A DNA stretch of 40,063 nucleotides from Aquificota bacterium (GTDB lineage: Bacteria > Aquificota > Aquificia > Aquificales > Aquificaceae). The DNA lies in contig JAUQQK010000014.1 in assembly GCA_030549905.1 (NCBI GenBank), positions 1 to 40,063 of the forward strand. Direction: 5' to 3'. Positions 16,485 through 24,534 of the stretch are shown piece by piece. The position numbers and the translations under genes are program-made. Every line of letters begins with the position of its first letter. Position 1 is the first letter of the stretch. The notes beneath the pieces are model-generated. The model made no database searches. It saw only the letters and a program-made list of their open reading frames with translations, and was not told the origin of the DNA.

Positions 16485-16503
16485 AAAGGCCCCGCAGGGG
16501 GCT
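16480..16503 (-). terminator. Intrinsic terminator of clpB
   Basis: Read on the minus strand, directly at the clpB stop, GCCCCC-TGC-GGGGC forms a strong GC stem (16502-16489). It is followed by CTTTTTAT (16488-16481). On plus the same hairpin follows the spoT stop but lacks a T tract, so it mainly serves clpB. Confidence 0.75.
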
Positions 16504-19463
16504 CAGGATGAAACCACTTCAAAGACTAACTGACCGTCCTTGAGGTCTGCTTTTACTTTCTGACCATCCTTTACCTCACCTTTGATTATAAGATTTGCAA
16601 GGGGTGTTTCTAAGTGCTTCTGAAGGGTTCTCTTCAAGGGTCTTGCACCGTAAGCGGGGTCGTAGCCGAGCCTTACAAGGTGTTCCTTTGCGGAAGGTGT
16701 TAGCTCTAAGCTTATGTTTCTTTCCGCAAGCCTTTTGTTTATGCTCGCCACAAGCAGGTCTATTATCTGGAACAGCTCCTTCATGGTGAGGGGCTTAAAT
16801 ACTATCACCTCGTCTATCCTGTTTAGAAACTCAGGTCTAAAGTGGTATTTTAGCTCTTCCAAAACCTTTTCCTTTGCCCTTTCAAACTCTTTCTGCACCT
16901 TCTCCTCGTCCGCATCCACAGGAATGGAAAGAAGATACTGAGAGCCTATGTTGGAGGTCATGATTATCACCGTGTTTCTAAAATCCACCGTCCTGCCGTG
17001 AGAGTCTGTGAGCCTTCCATCGTCCAGCACCTGTAAAAAGAGGTCAAAGACCCTCGGATGTGCCTTTTCCACCTCGTCAAGCAGGATTACTGAGTAGGGC
17101 TTTCTCCTTACCGCCTCTGTGAGCTTTCCACCCTCCTCGTATCCCACATAGCCCGGAGGTGCGCCTATAAGCTTTGCCACGCTGTGCTCTTCTTTGAATT
17201 CAGACATGTCAAGCCTTATTAGGGCATCTTCATCGCCAAAAAGGAGTTCAGCAAGAGCCTTGGAAAGCTCTGTCTTTCCAACACCTGTAGGACCCAGAAA
17301 GAGGAAGCTGGCTATGGGTCTCTTGGGGTCCTTTAGCCCAGCCCTTGCCCTTCTTATGGCTTCAGATACTGCCACCACCGCATGCTCCTGGTCTATAACC
17401 CTCCTGTGAAGCTCTTCCTCAAGTTTTAATAGCCTTTGCATTTCTTCTTCCTTCAACTTTGAGACAGGTATGCCCGTCCATTCTGAGACCACCTGAGCCA
17501 CATCGTCCCAGCCTACTACAAGCTCCTGAGCCTTTTTTGCTTCAAGCTCTTTTAGTTCCTTTTCTAACTTCACCTTTTCTATCTTCAGGTTTGCCTCCCT
17601 CTCATAATCTCCTCTTTCAGAAGCCTTTATTATCTCCTGGTCAAGCTCCTCCATCTTTTTCTTTATCTCAGAGAGCTTTGCTTCCACTCCACCCACTTTA
17701 GAAAGTAGCTCCTGCTTTTCCTTTTCAAGCTGAACCCTTTTAATCTTCAGCTGGGCTTCCTTCTCATAATTGCCCTCAAGGTAAGCCTTCTGAATCTCTT
17801 CTTCCAGAGACCTGAGCTTCCTTTCTATTTCCTGCACCTCTGGGGGCAGGGCTACCACCGAGAGCTTCTTTCTGGCGGAAGCCTGGTCTAAAGCATCTAT
17901 TGCCTTGTCGGGCAGTTTTCTAAAGGTCACGTATCTTCTCGTTAGCTTTACCGCCGCTTCTATGGCTTCGTCGGATATCTTCACCTTGTGGTGTTGCTCG
18001 AGCTTTGGTCTAAGACCTTTGAGTATCTCTATGGTCTCTTCTTCAGTAGGCTCATCTACGTATATGGGCTGGAACCTCCTTTCTAAGGCAGGGTCCTTCT
18101 CTATGTATTTTCTGTATTCGTCCACCGTGGTGGCACCTATTACCCTTATCTCTCCTCTTGCCAGAGCTGGCTTTAGCATGTTGCCCGCATCGACCGCACC
18201 TTCCGCCTTTCCTGCACCCACTATGGTGTGTATCTCATCTATGAAGAGAATCACATTGCCTTTTTGCTTTACCTCTTCAAGTAAGCTTTTGAGCCTTTCT
18301 TCAAACTCACCCCTGTATTTAGAGCCTGCAAGCATAGAACCCATGTCTACAGAGATTATTTCCTTGTCCTGAAGCTCTGTGGGGACTTCCTTATTCACAA
18401 TTCTTTGAGCAAGCCCTTCCACTATGGCAGTCTTTCCAACTCCTGGGTCTCCCACCAGCACCGGATTATTCTTTGTGCGTCTTAAAAGCACTTCAATAAC
18501 CTGATTTATTTCCCTTTCCCTGCCTATGACAGGGTCCAGTTTGCCTTCCTTTGCAAGCTGGGTTAGGTTTGTGCCGAACCGCTCAAGGGCTGATTTGTCC
18601 TCTTCCCTTAGTTCCTGAGCCACATCCTTCATCTTTTCACCTCCTGTAAGGTCTTCTAATATCTTACCTCCTATAGTATCCTTTGCCTCTATAAGGCTTG
18701 CGGATATGTGATAGGGCTCCACCTGAGAAAGCCCTTCAGACACAGCCTTATCCTGAGCCTTCTCAAGAACCCTTATTAGGTTTTGAGAGTAGTCAAAGGC
18801 AGGCTCTTTTCCAAAGACAATTTTGCCCACCGCTTCTATGACCCTTTCGGGCGACAGTCCAAGCTCCTTTACCTGCTCCACAAGGTTTGAGCTTTCTAAA
18901 GCCTTCCTGACAAGTCCATCTATGCTAAGCCTGTTTTCTAAAAAGGCTTTTACATCCTCTGGCTTAAAGACAGTGGAAAGGCTTCTTTCTACACCTTCTA
19001 ACTGACTTTTATAGTTGCCTTCAAGCCTTTCAAGGCGAGAAAGCTCCACCTGAAGCTCTTGATAGCTCCAGTAGTCTCCATATCTTCTTGCCCTTTCAAG
19101 CTCCTGCCTTATTTTCTCCTTTGCCTTCCTTATTTTCTCAAACTCTATCTGCACCTGTCCTATATCGGACTTTACCTGCATTATCTTGCTTCTTAGGTCT
19201 ATGAGGTATTTGGCTTCCTGCTCCACCGCCTTAGAGATTTGAGAAGATAGCTTTTCTAAATACTCAGACACCTTTTTATATACTTCCTTTGCATCTATGC
19301 CCCTCTTTTCAAGGTACTTGGATAGTGGAGATTTTTCATCCTGTAAGAAGGCAAGGAGAAGGTGGTCCGTATCCACCTTGTTGTCCCCCTTTGACCTGGC
19401 TATCTGTTTTGCCTTTTCCAAGTATTCCAAGGACTTCTTTGAAAGCAGGTTCTCACTAAACAT
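16503..19463 (-). CDS. clpB: ClpB disaggregase with an enlarged N-terminal domain
   Basis: The 986-residue protein is well above the usual ~860. It is a hexameric AAA+ chaperone that threads aggregated proteins with DnaK help. Two Clp_N half-repeats are seen at about 1-70 and 224-272. Between them is an insertion of about 150 residues rich in heptads (75-165 strongly coiled-coil). Then come NBD1 with GDPGVGKT (339-346) and [10 protein letters not shown], the middle coiled-coil M domain with two KEAQLKI/REANLKI-like repeats, NBD2 with GPTGVGKT (about 724-731), and a C-terminal D2-small domain. No ClpP-binding IGF/L loop was noticed. The start has AGGAGGT at good spacing and a consensus-like promoter. 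Confidence 0.95.
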
Positions 19464-19547: not shown

Positions 19548-19725
19548 AAGACTTAACAAAGGGGGTGGCTTATAATAGATTACCCCAGGTATAAGCTAAA
19601 ATACAAAGGATTGAACTGTCTCCGCTTTGCTTAAAAAGGTGATTTTTGTTAAGACAAAGATTGTACTCAAACAGGTGCCCGTGGAAGTGGAGGTAAGCAT
19701 AAGCAAACGATGGGAGAAGGGTTAA
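19548..19725 (+). other. Intergenic stretch with a possible promoter and a very short reading frame
   Basis: AAGACT (19548-19553), 17 bp and a perfect TATAAT (19571-19576) form a plausible plus-strand promoter. No long gene follows. A short frame from TTG 19627 or GTG 19639 to TAA 19723-19725 would encode about 29-33 residues rich in Lys and Val (ending SISKRWEKG). It could be a small protein, a gene remnant, or a transcript antisense to the 3' end of the LuxR-type gene. No family was recognised. Confidence 0.25.
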
Positions 19726-21023
19726 GTAGCCTGCTCTTTACTGTGTTCTTCCTGCCATTTTTTGTAAGATTCTTCCAAACCTTCTCTTGCCATGTTTAAT
19801 TTTTCCATAGCTCGCCTGCAGTGTTGCCTCACACTTGAAACAGATATAAACATCTCCTCCGCAATTTCCTTATAGCTTTTGCCCTTAAGTATGTGCGTTA
19901 GCACTTCTAACTCCTTAGTAGAAAGCCTTTTCCTGTCAGCATCCATACAGTGAAGCATCTCCTGAAGAAATTCAAGCTCAGGGCTTGAATGCTTTTCCTC
20001 TTGATTTATAGGTTCTTCCTGAAGCTCATTTTGAACCTCCTGTTCTACTCTTTCCTCTTGAGCAGGCTTTACCGCATAAAGCTTATAAAGCACATAAGCT
20101 ATTAAAGCAAGATTACCGACCATAAGAAGGAAGCTTATGTGTAAGCTCAACTTTGCCAGCAGATAGCCTGAGAGTATAGCAAGACATACGGTTCCAAAAC
20201 CCACTGGAAAGGCTTTGAGAGGATTTCTTATTTTCATTAGGCTGTATAGTAAATAAGTGTCAGTAAAGCCAAAAGCCATCTGCATGAGGAACATTACTAA
20301 ATTTAAAGACACAGCCATCTGTATATGCATAAGAGAAAAAGAAAAAGCAAAACATAGAACTGCTATATGCAAAAGATAACCTTCTTTTAAGCCCTTTGAA
20401 ATAACAAAATATGCAATAGCAACCGCAATAGCATAAAAAACCACCTCAATACCCAAAAAATAAGCCTTCTCTGAATAGTAAGACATAATACCTCTATACA
20501 TAAGACCACCTGTTATGTAGAGAAGGAATATACCAACCAAAAACTGCAAAGAAACACCCTGTTTATCCACATCCGACATAAACAAATTTATAGGCTTATA
20601 CAAACTAACCAAAGGAAGAAGACTTATAAGGAACATCTTATACATATCTTGGAAAGGAGAGAGCATAAGCAAGAGAACACCCACATTACCCAACGCCAGA
20701 CCAAGCAAAGACCATACCCTTACATTCTCACTCAGAATATACCCCACAAGCACCGCCAGAAAGGAAGAAAAAAAGCCAAGCAAGAACATCAGCAAGCCTT
20801 TAAAAGGAAAAAAGTAGAAGAAAAAGGTAAGCAAAGAAGAAACACCAACAAAAGGAAAAGCAAGCCTGTAAAAAACATAGTTATAGTAGTAAATAAGACC
20901 AAAGCCAACCATGTGTCCTGTAAGGAAATAAGGCAAAAGGTCTAAGTCTTTTAGCAAAAAGCCCGCCATAGGGAAGGATATAAGCCATAACACAAAACCC
21001 ACAAGACTTACAAAACCAAACAT
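19722..21023 (-). CDS. Membrane-embedded LuxR-type transcription factor (12-TM MFS-like sensor + HTH)
   Basis: The 433-residue protein has about twelve hydrophobic segments in residues 1-325, arranged like an MFS or related sensor domain. An acidic, Gln-rich cytoplasmic linker (about 328-360) follows, then a LuxR/GerE helix-turn-helix (365-412; KELEVLTHILKGKSYKEIAE, then SVSSVRQHCRRAMEKL). Such one-piece membrane regulators are best known from Eggerthella-type actinobacteria, where they control neighbouring genes in response to small molecules. Here the gene is divergent from a surface lipoprotein, and the space between holds a repeat array that is the obvious target. The ligand is unknown. 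A TATAAT lies 11 nt upstream of the start, so the leader is very short. Confidence 0.85.
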   Translation of the reverse strand: MFGFVSLVGFVLWLISFPMAGFLLKDLDLLPYFLTGHMVGFGLIYYYNYVFYRLAFPFVGVSSLLTFFFYFFPFKGLLMFLLGFFSSFLAVLVGYILSENVRVWSLLGLALGNVGVLLLMLSPFQDMYKMFLISLLPLVSLYKPINLFMSDVDKQGVSLQFLVGIFLLYITGGLMYRGIMSYYSEKAYFLGIEVVFYAIAVAIAYFVISKGLKEGYLLHIAVLCFAFSFSLMHIQMAVSLNLVMFLMQMAFGFTDTYLLYSLMKIRNPLKAFPVGFGTVCLAILSGYLLAKLSLHISFLLMVGNLALIAYVLYKLYAVKPAQEERVEQEVQNELQEEPINQEEKHSSPELEFLQEMLHCMDADRKRLSTKELEVLTHILKGKSYKEIAEEMFISVSSVRQHCRRAMEKLNMAREGLEESYKKWQEEHSKEQAT

Positions 21024-21034
21024 AAAAAACCCCC

Positions 21035-21040
21035 ATTATA
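21035..21040 (-). promoter_or_regulatory. -10 element of the membrane LuxR gene
   Basis: A perfect TATAAT reads on minus (21040-21035), 11 nt before the ATG. There is no -35 consensus at 16-18 bp. That position is taken by repeat site 1 of the TGYGACA array (21052-21058), which suggests activator dependence or autoregulation. Confidence 0.5.
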
Positions 21041-21051
21041 CATTTTAACCC

Positions 21052-21152
21052 TGTCACAGGGGCATGTGTATTTTGTCGCAGGGGGTATGCGACAAGGGGT
21101 GTGACAAACCCTGCGACAAGCCCTGCGACAAAAATGCGACAAAGATGCGACT
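21052..21152. repeat. Array of eight TGYGACA(A) sites between divergent genes, probable operator
   Basis: Sites start at 21052 and 21074 (inverted, read as TGTCRCA), then 21088, 21100, 21112, 21124, 21135 and 21146 (direct). The direct sites are 12, 12, 12, 11 and 11 bp apart, close to one helix turn. Site 1 is centred in the palindrome CCCTGT-C-ACAGGG (21049-21061). Sites 2 and 3 form an 8-bp perfect inverted repeat with a 7-nt centre (21073-21095). The last site runs into the -35 TTGACA of the lipoprotein gene. The layout looks like multimeric binding of an activator upstream of -35; the adjacent LuxR-type protein is the natural candidate. Confidence 0.75.
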
Positions 21153-21181
21153 TGACAAGCTCCCCCACATACAGCTACCTT
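21152..21181 (+). promoter_or_regulatory. Promoter of the surface lipoprotein gene
   Basis: A perfect -35 TTGACA (21152-21157) overlaps the last repeat of the array, with a weak -10 TACCTT (21176-21181) after 18 bp. A weak -10 together with upstream sites fits positive control. The gene itself has AGGGAGG (21198-21204), 7 nt before the ATG. Confidence 0.5.
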
Positions 21182-21211
21182 ATTCCAATAAGCATGTAGG
21201 GAGGAACTGCC

Positions 21212-23887
21212 ATGAAGCTAAGAGATTTATTGGCTACATGCCTGATAGCCCTGCTGGCAATCCTGTCAGGGTGCGGTGGAGGTTCTTCTTCTGGTCCCCT
21301 TGAGGGACTGCGGACTGCTCTGTTTGGAAACAAGAACCTAAAGGTTCAAAGTATCATACCATCCTCATGGGCTATTTCCTATGGAGGAGGTCCATCTGGT
21401 TTCTTCTCGTCTCCACTTGACTATGAAGAATATGCATATGCTATTCAGGAAACAAGTGACAATGGGTACATAGTAGCTGGAAGTGAAGAATCTTTCAGCG
21501 GTGGCGTTAAAGATGTCTGGATATTGAAGCTTGACCAAGATGGAAATGTTGTTTGGCAGAATAGATATGGCGGTGATGGCGATGATATAGCCTATTCAAT
21601 CCAGCAGACATCAGATGGTGGATACATAGTTGCAGGGTGCACGAGTTCATTTACTCAATACGAACATGCATGGATCCTAAAGCTTAATGCTAACGGTGAC
21701 ATAGAATGGGGAAAGGCTTATGGTAGAAGCGACTCTTCTACTTGTGTTTACTCAGTACAGCAAACGGATGATGGTTATATAGCAGTTGGATGGATAGGTT
21801 TTTCTAGTGTGGGTGATGGCTCTACTCTTATCATAAAACTTGACCAGTCTGGGAACTTAGTTTGGGAAAAGGTTTACGGAAGAGATGGTGGAGCTAATTC
21901 AGTTATTTATGCTAAGGCAATCCAAAGGACTTTAGATAGTGGATACATAATAGCTGGATATACGTTTGCAAACCAGTCGCCAACAAATTATGACGTTTGG
22001 ATCCTAAAAATAGATGCTGACGGCAATAAACAATGGGAAAGGTTCTATGGTGGGGCAGGAGAAGACTATGCTTATTCTATTCAACAGATATCAAATAACG
22101 AATATGTATTGGCTGGGATGACAACCTCTTTCGGTGCTGGCAATGCCGATGCTTTTGTGCTTAAGATTGATGGAAACGGAAATTTAATATGGTTTAAGAC
22201 CTACGGGGGAACAGGTTATGATTCCGCATATTCCCTTCAGAAAACTTCAGATGGTGGCTACATAGTGGCTGGATATACAAGTTCATTTGGCTTAGCTCCT
22301 CCTGACTTGTGGATATTTAAGCTTAACCAAGATGGGGACGTATTATGGGGGAAAACTTATGGTAGCAGTGTAGGCTGGACAACAGAGGAGGGGGCCTACG
22401 CCGTTCGAGAAACAATTGATGGTCATTATATAGTAGCTGGTTATACAAAAACTTTTGGAAAAGGTAATTCTTATGATATGTGGATACTAAAAGTTGATTC
22501 TGGGGGTAATGTTCAAGGTTGTAGTATTATGAGTGCATCAAATATAGTTGTTAAGACAGTAACTACAGACATATCTCTTAGTGGTCAATCTATACTTGAA
22601 CAGAACCCAGTAATTTCTTCTATTGTTGATACTTCTAACCTTGCACAAGTCAATCCAACGTATGTGCAAGGATACGAGGTGTGCTTCTATCCAAAATATA
22701 CCCTGAACATCAATAGAATGGGTACAGGTATCGGTTCTGTATCAAGTGATGATCTTTTAATTATGTGTTCGCCTGTGATGCAAGACTGCACCCAGCAATA
22801 TAGACAAAATGTTTTAGTTACCTTACAAGCTTATGCATCCAACGACTCCGTCTTTTCAGGTTGGGGTGGAGATTGTCAGAGCTGTGGAACAAATACCACA
22901 TGTCAGATAACCATGGATTCAAACAAAACATGCACAGCAACATTTAATCAGTTACCACCTAACAATCCTCCTGTTATAAATAGCAATAGCTTCGTTGCTA
23001 ATCCAAACTCAGGAACAGCACCATTGCAAGTCACATTCAGCTGGAACATATCAGACCCAGATAACGACACGCTTACCTGCAAGCTTGATGTAAATGGTGA
23101 TAATACCATTGACTACACAATAAACAACTGCACAAGCCAGAGCACGCAAACCCACACCTACAACACACCAGGCACATACACAGCAAAGCTAATAGTAGAT
23201 GATGGAAGAGGTGGAACAGCCAGTGCAACATATAACATAACAGTAAGTCAGGCTACTGGTGGCGGAAGTAGTGGTTCTGGCGGAGGTACTGGAGGTGGTG
23301 GCACTGGCGGGGGTGGTGGCGGACCAATAGTAATACCACCCCCAGAGACACCCACCACACCACCCGCAGACACAGCCACCACCAGCTCACCATCAGGAGG
23401 CAACATATCTGTGCAGGTAACAGGTGGCACCTTTACACAACAACCTACCACCATAACCAACATACCCGCACCACCCAACAACGGCACCACACCACACGGA
23501 GCTATAACCTTCACAGTACAGCTTGCACAAGGACAGACACAGATAAACGTGAGCATAACCTTCCCCAGCATACCAGCCAACGCACAGTTTTATAAGCTCA
23601 TAAACGGCAATTACATACCCTTCACACCCACCATAAGTGGCAATACGATAAGCTTTACCGTTGTGGATAACGGACAGCTTGATGCAAACAGTCAGGCTGG
23701 TGTGATAGGCGACCCTGTTGTGATGGTGGTTCCACAGCAACAAAGTGGAGGTAGTGGCACAGGTGGTAGCACTGTAGGAGGAGGTGGAGGAGGTTGTTCT
23801 ATGGGTGGTGGAGCATCACCTGTTAATAGTCTTATGTGGCTTCTTGTGCCTGCAAGCGTGCTTCTACGGAGGCTAAGAAGAAGGTAA
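21212..23887 (+). CDS. Large surface lipoprotein: seven-repeat propeller, PKD, choice-of-anchor U-like domain, C-terminal sorting tail
   Basis: The 891-residue protein begins with a lipoprotein signal (lipobox LSGC, Cys21). Residues about 50-470 hold seven ~55-residue repeats (consensus AYSIQQTSDGGYIVAG ... WILKLDxxGNVxWxKxYG), probably a seven-bladed beta-propeller. About 495-580 is a Cys-containing InlB-B-like repeat (VFSGWGGDC, then CTATFN). About 585-680 is a PKD domain (GTAPLQVTFSW, DPDNDTLTCKLDVNGD, GTYTAKLIVDDG). A Gly-rich then Pro/Thr-rich linker leads to a beta domain (about 729-843) resembling 'choice-of-anchor U'. The end is GGGG-CSMGGGASPVN (Cys862), a hydrophobic helix and RRLRRR, as in CTERM sorting signals. 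Function is probably adhesion or envelope structure; unproven. Confidence 0.85.
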   Translation: MKLRDLLATCLIALLAILSGCGGGSSSGPLEGLRTALFGNKNLKVQSIIPSSWAISYGGGPSGFFSSPLDYEEYAYAIQETSDNGYIVAGSEESFSGGVKDVWILKLDQDGNVVWQNRYGGDGDDIAYSIQQTSDGGYIVAGCTSSFTQYEHAWILKLNANGDIEWGKAYGRSDSSTCVYSVQQTDDGYIAVGWIGFSSVGDGSTLIIKLDQSGNLVWEKVYGRDGGANSVIYAKAIQRTLDSGYIIAGYTFANQSPTNYDVWILKIDADGNKQWERFYGGAGEDYAYSIQQISNNEYVLAGMTTSFGAGNADAFVLKIDGNGNLIWFKTYGGTGYDSAYSLQKTSDGGYIVAGYTSSFGLAPPDLWIFKLNQDGDVLWGKTYGSSVGWTTEEGAYAVRETIDGHYIVAGYTKTFGKGNSYDMWILKVDSGGNVQGCSIMSASNIVVKTVTTDISLSGQSILEQNPVISSIVDTSNLAQVNPTYVQGYEVCFYPKYTLNINRMGTGIGSVSSDDLLIMCSPVMQDCTQQYRQNVLVTLQAYASNDSVFSGWGGDCQSCGTNTTCQITMDSNKTCTATFNQLPPNNPPVINSNSFVANPNSGTAPLQVTFSWNISDPDNDTLTCKLDVNGDNTIDYTINNCTSQSTQTHTYNTPGTYTAKLIVDDGRGGTASATYNITVSQATGGGSSGSGGGTGGGGTGGGGGGPIVIPPPETPTTPPADTATTSSPSGGNISVQVTGGTFTQQPTTITNIPAPPNNGTTPHGAITFTVQLAQGQTQINVSITFPSIPANAQFYKLINGNYIPFTPTISGNTISFTVVDNGQLDANSQAGVIGDPVVMVVPQQQSGGSGTGGSTVGGGGGGCSMGGGASPVNSLMWLLVPASVLLRRLRRR

Positions 23888-24030: not shown

Positions 24031-24474
24031 TTAACCCTGCATCTTTGCAACTTCATGCCTGTGCTTGCCTTCCACGTCCGCAAGCTCTGCTATTGTAGTA
24101 CTTGTGAGGTATTCAAGTATCTTTTCTCTGAGTTCTGTCCATTTATGATGCACCGTGCAGGGAGCGGTTTGCCATTCTTCACACCGTCCCGGTCTTAGGG
24201 CACAGTAATCTAACTTGTAGTCTTCGTCCAGGTATCTTATAACATCCATTATGGTTATCTGTTCGGGAGGTACCGCAAGGGTGAAGCCACCTGTTGGACC
24301 CTTGTAGGACTTCAGCACACGCTCCCTGGCGAGCTTATGGAATATCTTTGAAAGGAAGGGTTTTGGTATGCGCTGAGCCTCTGCGATTTCTTCCACCTTA
24401 ACGAGCCTGTCCCTGTTCAGGGCAAGGTATGCAAGGGCAAGCAGGGCATATTTTACAGTTTCTGAGTATATCAT
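24031..24474 (-). CDS. Rrf2-family Fe-S transcriptional regulator
   Basis: The protein is 147 residues from the chosen start (150 from an upstream ATG at 24483). The N-terminal winged helix is typical of Rrf2 (YALLALAYLALNRDRLVKVEEIAEA, PKPFLSKIFHKLARERVLKSYKGPTGGF). Three cysteines, in CALRPGRCEEWQTAPC (C-x6-C-x7-C), match the cluster-binding loop of IscR/NsrR/RsrR-like sensors. It therefore probably senses iron-sulfur status, redox state or NO. The start at 24474 is preferred because TATAAT (24488-24483) lies 8 nt before it, the leaderless pattern seen at other genes here. It is divergent from glnE. Target genes are unknown. Confidence 0.9.
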   Translation of the reverse strand: MIYSETVKYALLALAYLALNRDRLVKVEEIAEAQRIPKPFLSKIFHKLARERVLKSYKGPTGGFTLAVPPEQITIMDVIRYLDEDYKLDYCALRPGRCEEWQTAPCTVHHKWTELREKILEYLTSTTIAELADVEGKHRHEVAKMQG

Positions 24475-24482
24475 AATAAACA

Positions 24483-24534
24483 ATTATATACCTTAAAGTC
24501 CCTTTATGCAACCCATCCTCATAGCCATTAGAAT
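24483..24534. promoter_or_regulatory. Divergent promoters of rrf2 and glnE
   Basis: Minus: TTGCAT (24511-24506), 17 bp, TATAAT (24488-24483), 8 nt before the rrf2 ATG. Plus: TAGAAT (24529-24534), 6 nt before the glnE ATG at 24541. Neither gene has a Shine-Dalgarno. The shared 67-bp space is where autoregulation by the Rrf2 protein would act. Confidence 0.5.

Follow-up and report, generated by a model that had tools for sequence, protein, structure and literature searches.

We found that a membrane protein with a LuxR-type DNA-binding domain is probably a one-component transcription activator of the divergent gene for a surface protein, acting through an array of TGYGAC sites between the two genes; we put the probability of this reading at about two in three. 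The genes are in the window (the whole 40,063-nucleotide stretch of DNA that was analysed), which is contig C8 of a 28-contig, 1.65 Mb Aquificaceae genome. The ORF for the regulator (19722-21023, minus strand; 433 amino acids) and the ORF for the surface lipoprotein (21212-23887, plus strand; 891 amino acids) are divergent and separated by 188 bp. A first-pass annotation of this DNA had described a 12-TM domain fused to a LuxR DNA-binding domain, divergent from a single large surface protein, with eight sites between the genes. The fusion was borne out (the coordinates were exact, 12 helices were predicted and a GerE match was found), the ORF coordinates confirmed the divergent arrangement, and all eight sites were present, six direct and two inverted. 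The window also contains a gene for a ClpB-like AAA protein (16503-19463; 986 amino acids; 1030 bits versus a curated ClpB cut-off of 1232).

The regulator was identified by profile search and structure prediction. Its C-terminus matched the GerE/LuxR domain PF00196 over residues 366-411 (E=4.5e-12; 45.9 bits versus a cut-off of 23.5); the domain itself is assigned to residues 361-412 (19788-19943, minus strand). Known families matched only the last 70 residues (GerE): the membrane part matched no Pfam or NCBIfam family, and no MFS family at E up to 1. An AlphaFold2 model, built from an alignment of 11 homologues, had 12 membrane helices over residues 2-335 (mean pLDDT 83.9). The top structural matches of the model were MFS transporters, with many MFS entries nearly tied. 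MelB matched with a Z of 27.6 and an rmsd of 3.7 (322 residues aligned, 9% identity, regulator residues 1-327), and MelB, VMAT and SotB resembled the predicted fold with Z values of 25-28. Unlike these transporters, the regulator has no sequence-profile match to the family and is fused to a DNA-binding domain. Based on the predicted structure and the alignment of homologues, residues 1-326 (20046-21023, minus strand) form a putative membrane sensor domain with the MFS fold. The 11 sequences share 44 invariant alignment columns, 36 of which are in the membrane part. These 36 include F10, V11, W13, S16-M19 and G21 in the TM1 signature FVxWLISFPMxGFLL, the tyrosines Y169/176/183/197, and the polar residues K129, E193, Q248 and D255. 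Together, the domains, the predicted fold and the conservation across relatives support the proposal of a one-component membrane LuxR regulator.

We infer that the membrane domain senses a compound. The predicted MFS fold does not by itself show sensing, and the protein could still transport. That is, the domain may be an active transporter or transceptor whose flux, and not ligand occupancy, is relayed to the DNA-binding domain, as the full set of 12 predicted helices and the four invariant polar residues might suggest. However, there was no Pfam MFS sequence match, and the neighbours of the regulator are genes for surface proteins and not catabolic genes. We consider signalling by flux unlikely.

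The DNA between the two genes contains a regular array of putative operator sites. Six direct sites, TGYGAC(A/T), begin at 21088, 21100, 21112, 21124, 21135 and 21146 (21088-21152, plus strand), with spacings of 12, 12, 12, 11 and 11 bp; the last of them is TGCGACT. A motif scan identified two inverted sites on the minus strand, TGTGACA (21052-21058) on the regulator side and TGCGACA (21074-21080). Seven of the eight sites match TGYGACA exactly, and the remaining one differs at a single position. In the 1.65 Mb genome there are 51 copies of TGYGACA, elsewhere scattered singly and with no second cluster. The seven exact sites span 90 bp, and at the Poisson rate ~4e-16 windows of 90 bp with seven sites are expected. 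No paired sites at 11-12 bp, with one mismatch or fewer, were found elsewhere in the window genome.

Arrays and regulators tended to occur together. Exact paired arrays were found in four of seven genomes with a close regulator versus 2 of 94 without one (Fisher p=1.2e-4, a value that ignores kinship among the 101 genomes). The two regulator-less genomes with an exact paired match were G017 (69% complete) and G098. The match in G098 (C38:4540) was rejected, as was one in G039 (C8:93342), both being inside coding sequence. G017 (C91; L068:11-82) has TGTGACA arrays in both direct and inverted orientation where a contig ends, and no regulator was found in this genome. As a probe for the regulon, the exact 12-mer TGYGACTTGACA was too strict, matching 2 of 61 genomes. 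A search for paired sites with two mismatches gave as many matches as a reversed control pattern, and we therefore used mainly matches with 0-1 mismatch. These comparisons beyond the window support the proposal that the array is the probable cognate operator of the regulator. We think it very improbable that the array serves a different regulator, such as the Rrf2 protein encoded ~145 bp past the surface gene (24031-24483): array-like sites adjoin the regulator in varied neighbourhoods and phyla, and no Rrf2 gene was noticed there.

The array leads directly into a predicted promoter for the surface gene (21152-21181, plus strand), assigned from sequence and from a layout shared with homologous loci. 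The -35 hexamer, TTGACA (21152-21157), abuts the last operator site and is followed, after an 18-nt spacer, by a -10-like sequence, TACCTT (21176-21181), that is a poor match. Across 13 aligned intergenic regions, AAGTC was nearly invariant and there were more TGT sites at ~11-bp steps. Read toward the divergent gene, AAGTC is GAC-TT, and the TT starts the -35 hexamer. In most loci the site nearest the divergent gene abuts the -35, and a -10 then follows at 16-18 nt. The -35/-10 pairs were TTGACA/TAGGAT in G034, TTGATA/TATAAT in G011, TTCAAA/TATAAT in L121, TTTACA/GATAAT in L147 and TTTACA/TAGGAT in genus g3; matches were weak in L120, L123 and L125. In our first promoter scan the anchor patterns included part of the -35, and so we repeated it with an operator-only anchor, which was misplaced in G040 and G039. 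The mean -35 match was then 4.0, compared to 1.6 at random positions of the same regions, and the mean -10 match was 4.1 compared to 2.7; none of 100,000 draws reached the observed means, although related loci in these comparisons, as in those of the arrays, are not independent samples.

Judged from sequence, a site abutting the -35 would favour activation through contact with RNA polymerase. It is also conceivable that the regulator represses both the surface gene and its own gene until a signal releases it, with the sites next to the -35 blocking RNA polymerase. The last site does touch the -35, and the inverted site at 21052-21058 is inside the predicted promoter of the regulator gene (-35 at 21070, -10 ending at 21042). 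However, the helix-phased array reaches upstream of the -35, the usual layout for activators with a GerE domain; the lux box, for example, is at about -42. In addition, the 12-TM LuxR proteins of Eggerthella (the DadR, HcdR and CadR class) are genetically proven activators (PMC9734109). We regard repression as rather unlikely.

Homologues of the regulator were found in 11 of the 101 genomes searched (including the window genome), one copy in each. The first-pass annotation had looked to other 12-TM LuxR proteins in Aquificota for nearby arrays and adjacent surface-protein genes, and this expectation mostly held. Arrays were clear in G045, G040, G039 and L119 and shorter in G034, and the promoters in Nitrospirota and Desulfatitalea were array-like. 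The divergent genes in G040 and G034 encode sorting-tail proteins of 399 and 401 amino acids, in G034 behind a 162-aa ORF. In G039, a gene for a 771-aa sorting-tail protein is upstream in the same direction, and the array precedes that gene. The neighbour in G045 is an exported trypsin-FHA protein. The expectation failed in G011 and G004, which have degenerate arrays next to a uracil-DNA glycosylase-like gene, and in genus g3, which has array-like sites next to fabD; none of these has an exported neighbour.

G040 has a second array, ~530 kb from the first, that precedes another sorting-tail lipoprotein gene. This region duplicates, at 88% identity, the intergenic DNA and the opening bases of the regulator gene (L103:6203-6421 versus L024:9333-9573), indicating that the operator travelled with its target gene. 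We accepted this array, which has two mismatches, because of its position and the duplication. In G045 there was a further array at a contig end (C36; L020:1-32), and sorting-tail genes were cut at the ends of C39 and C57, which suggests that the assembly broke at repeated arrays or gene starts.

We also searched more widely. Scanning a larger genome-contig collection with the regulator as a single sequence gave no homologues; an alignment scan of the same collection gave homologues in Nitrospirota and in a Desulfatitalea MAG. When 296 genomes from one of those phyla were searched, three more genomes with a homologue were found, one of the genes being truncated. Most relatives, in Aquificaceae, Nitrospirota and the Desulfatitalea MAG, keep the divergent layout with a helix-phased array between the genes and a neighbour that is usually exported. 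The neighbour proteins are often unrelated to each other. Those of L120-L125 have a lipobox and Gly runs, that of L126 has 93 amino acids and a signal-like N-terminus, and those of L147 and L148 resemble an outer-membrane barrel. In L119, a gene for a bacterial gasdermin (PADLOC bGSDM E=8e-26; L119:568-1407) is behind a TGYGACA array and divergent from the regulator homologue; a defence-type pore protein under the switch of this regulator would be unexpected. A gene for a 182-aa, possibly exported protein adjoins the gasdermin gene. We rejected two MAG labels as likely misbinning. L119 was labelled Bathyarchaeota, and the gatB gene that flanks it has its matches on Aquificaceae contigs (74% to G045). 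L120 was labelled Anaerolineaceae, and its DNA is 85% identical over 3.3 kb to the Desulfatitalea locus.

In a tree of the regulators, the Aquificaceae clade, with TGYGACA sites, was apart from the rest, with GTCGTCC/GTCAAC-type sites; thus, site type follows regulator clade. Spacing was less regular in Nitrospirota, and a strict chain test was not significant for most Nitrospirota loci. The pairing of the regulator with an exported neighbour is common, not universal. Across phyla, the controlled protein changes, but the membrane domain, polar residues included, is conserved; the regulator therefore probably responds to a general cue from the envelope or the environment and not to the surface protein's own substrate. 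A conserved sensor domain next to exported proteins of unrelated sequence could also mean that the regulator monitors how the surface protein itself is exported or sorted, a form of feedback, rather than an external compound. This seems quite improbable, given the orthologues without an exported neighbour (G011, G004 and g3) and the one with a gasdermin (L119).

The surface protein, characterized by profile search and reading, has a lipobox, LSGC, at residue 21 (C21), SBBP/delta-60-like repeats, an InlB-like repeat, a PKD domain and a choice-of-anchor U domain (E=6.5e-16). By reading, its tail (23777-23887, plus strand), GGGGGCSMGGGASPVNSLMWLLVPASVLLRRLRRR, has a Gly run, Cys862, a hydrophobic helix and RRLRRR. 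The three features of MYXO-CTERM, an invariant Cys, a TM helix and an Arg-rich tail, could thus be read in it, and the Gly/Cys motif, the helix and the Arg-rich end resemble the MYXO-CTERM/myxosortase system (PMC11980579). The tail differs from that system in that the MYXO-CTERM profile TIGR03901 had no match to the surface protein at E up to 1. No CPBP/Rce1-like protease, the kind that processes MYXO-CTERM proteins (PMC11980579), was found in the window genome at E up to 0.001. Nine relatives have one such protease each.

The regulator resembles several known systems. Like NarL/FixJ-type proteins, it has a GerE domain and short sites in several orientations, as in the heptamers of NarL promoters, but it is membrane-bound and has no receiver domain or kinase. 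Like ToxR/CadC-type proteins, it would be a membrane-bound, DNA-binding activator that works without a kinase; those proteins differ from the 12-TM GerE regulator in having a single TM helix and a winged-helix domain. It is most like DadR, HcdR and CadR of Coriobacteriia, which also have an N-terminal 12-TM domain, a C-terminal PF00196 HTH and a gene near the presumed target. Coriobacteriia have dozens of 12-TM LuxRs per genome, controlling catechol dehydroxylases and other enzymes, and in the Eggerthella class the membrane domains have diverged (generally <20% identical) and the inducers match the substrates of individual enzymes (PMC9734109). In contrast, the regulator described here occurs once per genome, its membrane domain is conserved, its putative targets are exported proteins, and its array abuts the -35. 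Scans of the contig collection with the regulator and with query A2 returned no Eggerthella sequences. By architecture the regulator fits the 10-12-TM LuxR class, yet it is a distinct subfamily, in a comparison in which DadR, HcdR and CadR were known by description.

The annotation had also suggested that an Aquificaceae-like genome would be a new setting for such fusions, and this was only partly right. The class has been described as reaching its highest abundance in Coriobacteriia without being confined to them (PMC9734109), and an earlier count had already recorded transmembrane regulators in Aquificota (PMC10269533). The main text of PMC9734109 mentions no operator array or MFS fold for the 10-12-TM LuxRs. 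The architecture class is known. In the open-access literature searched, we came across no account of an MFS-LuxR fusion with an operator array, and no description of the subfamily, of its array or of its exported-protein targets.

In the reading that we favour, the 12-helix MFS-fold domain would act as a sensor and is probably no longer, or not mainly, a transporter. The cytoplasmic GerE domain would bind the TGYGAC sites, and in the signalled state several copies of the regulator would line up next to one another along a single face of the DNA. The bound copies could then touch RNA polymerase at the promoter, the -35 of which adjoins the last site, and so turn on the divergent gene, whose product is the exported surface protein. 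Autoregulation is the probable role of the inverted sites on the regulator side. More tentatively, it is possible that the MFS-fold sensor, the GerE domain and the helix-phased array abutting the -35 make up a transferable one-protein cassette that couples one conserved signal, across several phyla including thermophiles, to unrelated exported effectors (surface lipoproteins and outer-membrane barrels) and in one case to a gasdermin.

How a polytopic membrane protein directly controls transcription is an open question for the whole 12-TM LuxR class, and we know of no ligand-binding structure for it. In this subfamily the putative operator is defined, the promoter geometry is fixed, the membrane domain is conserved, the proteins are thermostable and the regulon is small (the window genome has one array and G040 two), features that make the search for a ligand and a structure directly testable. 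It also links membrane sensing to the display of surface proteins in deep-branching thermophiles.
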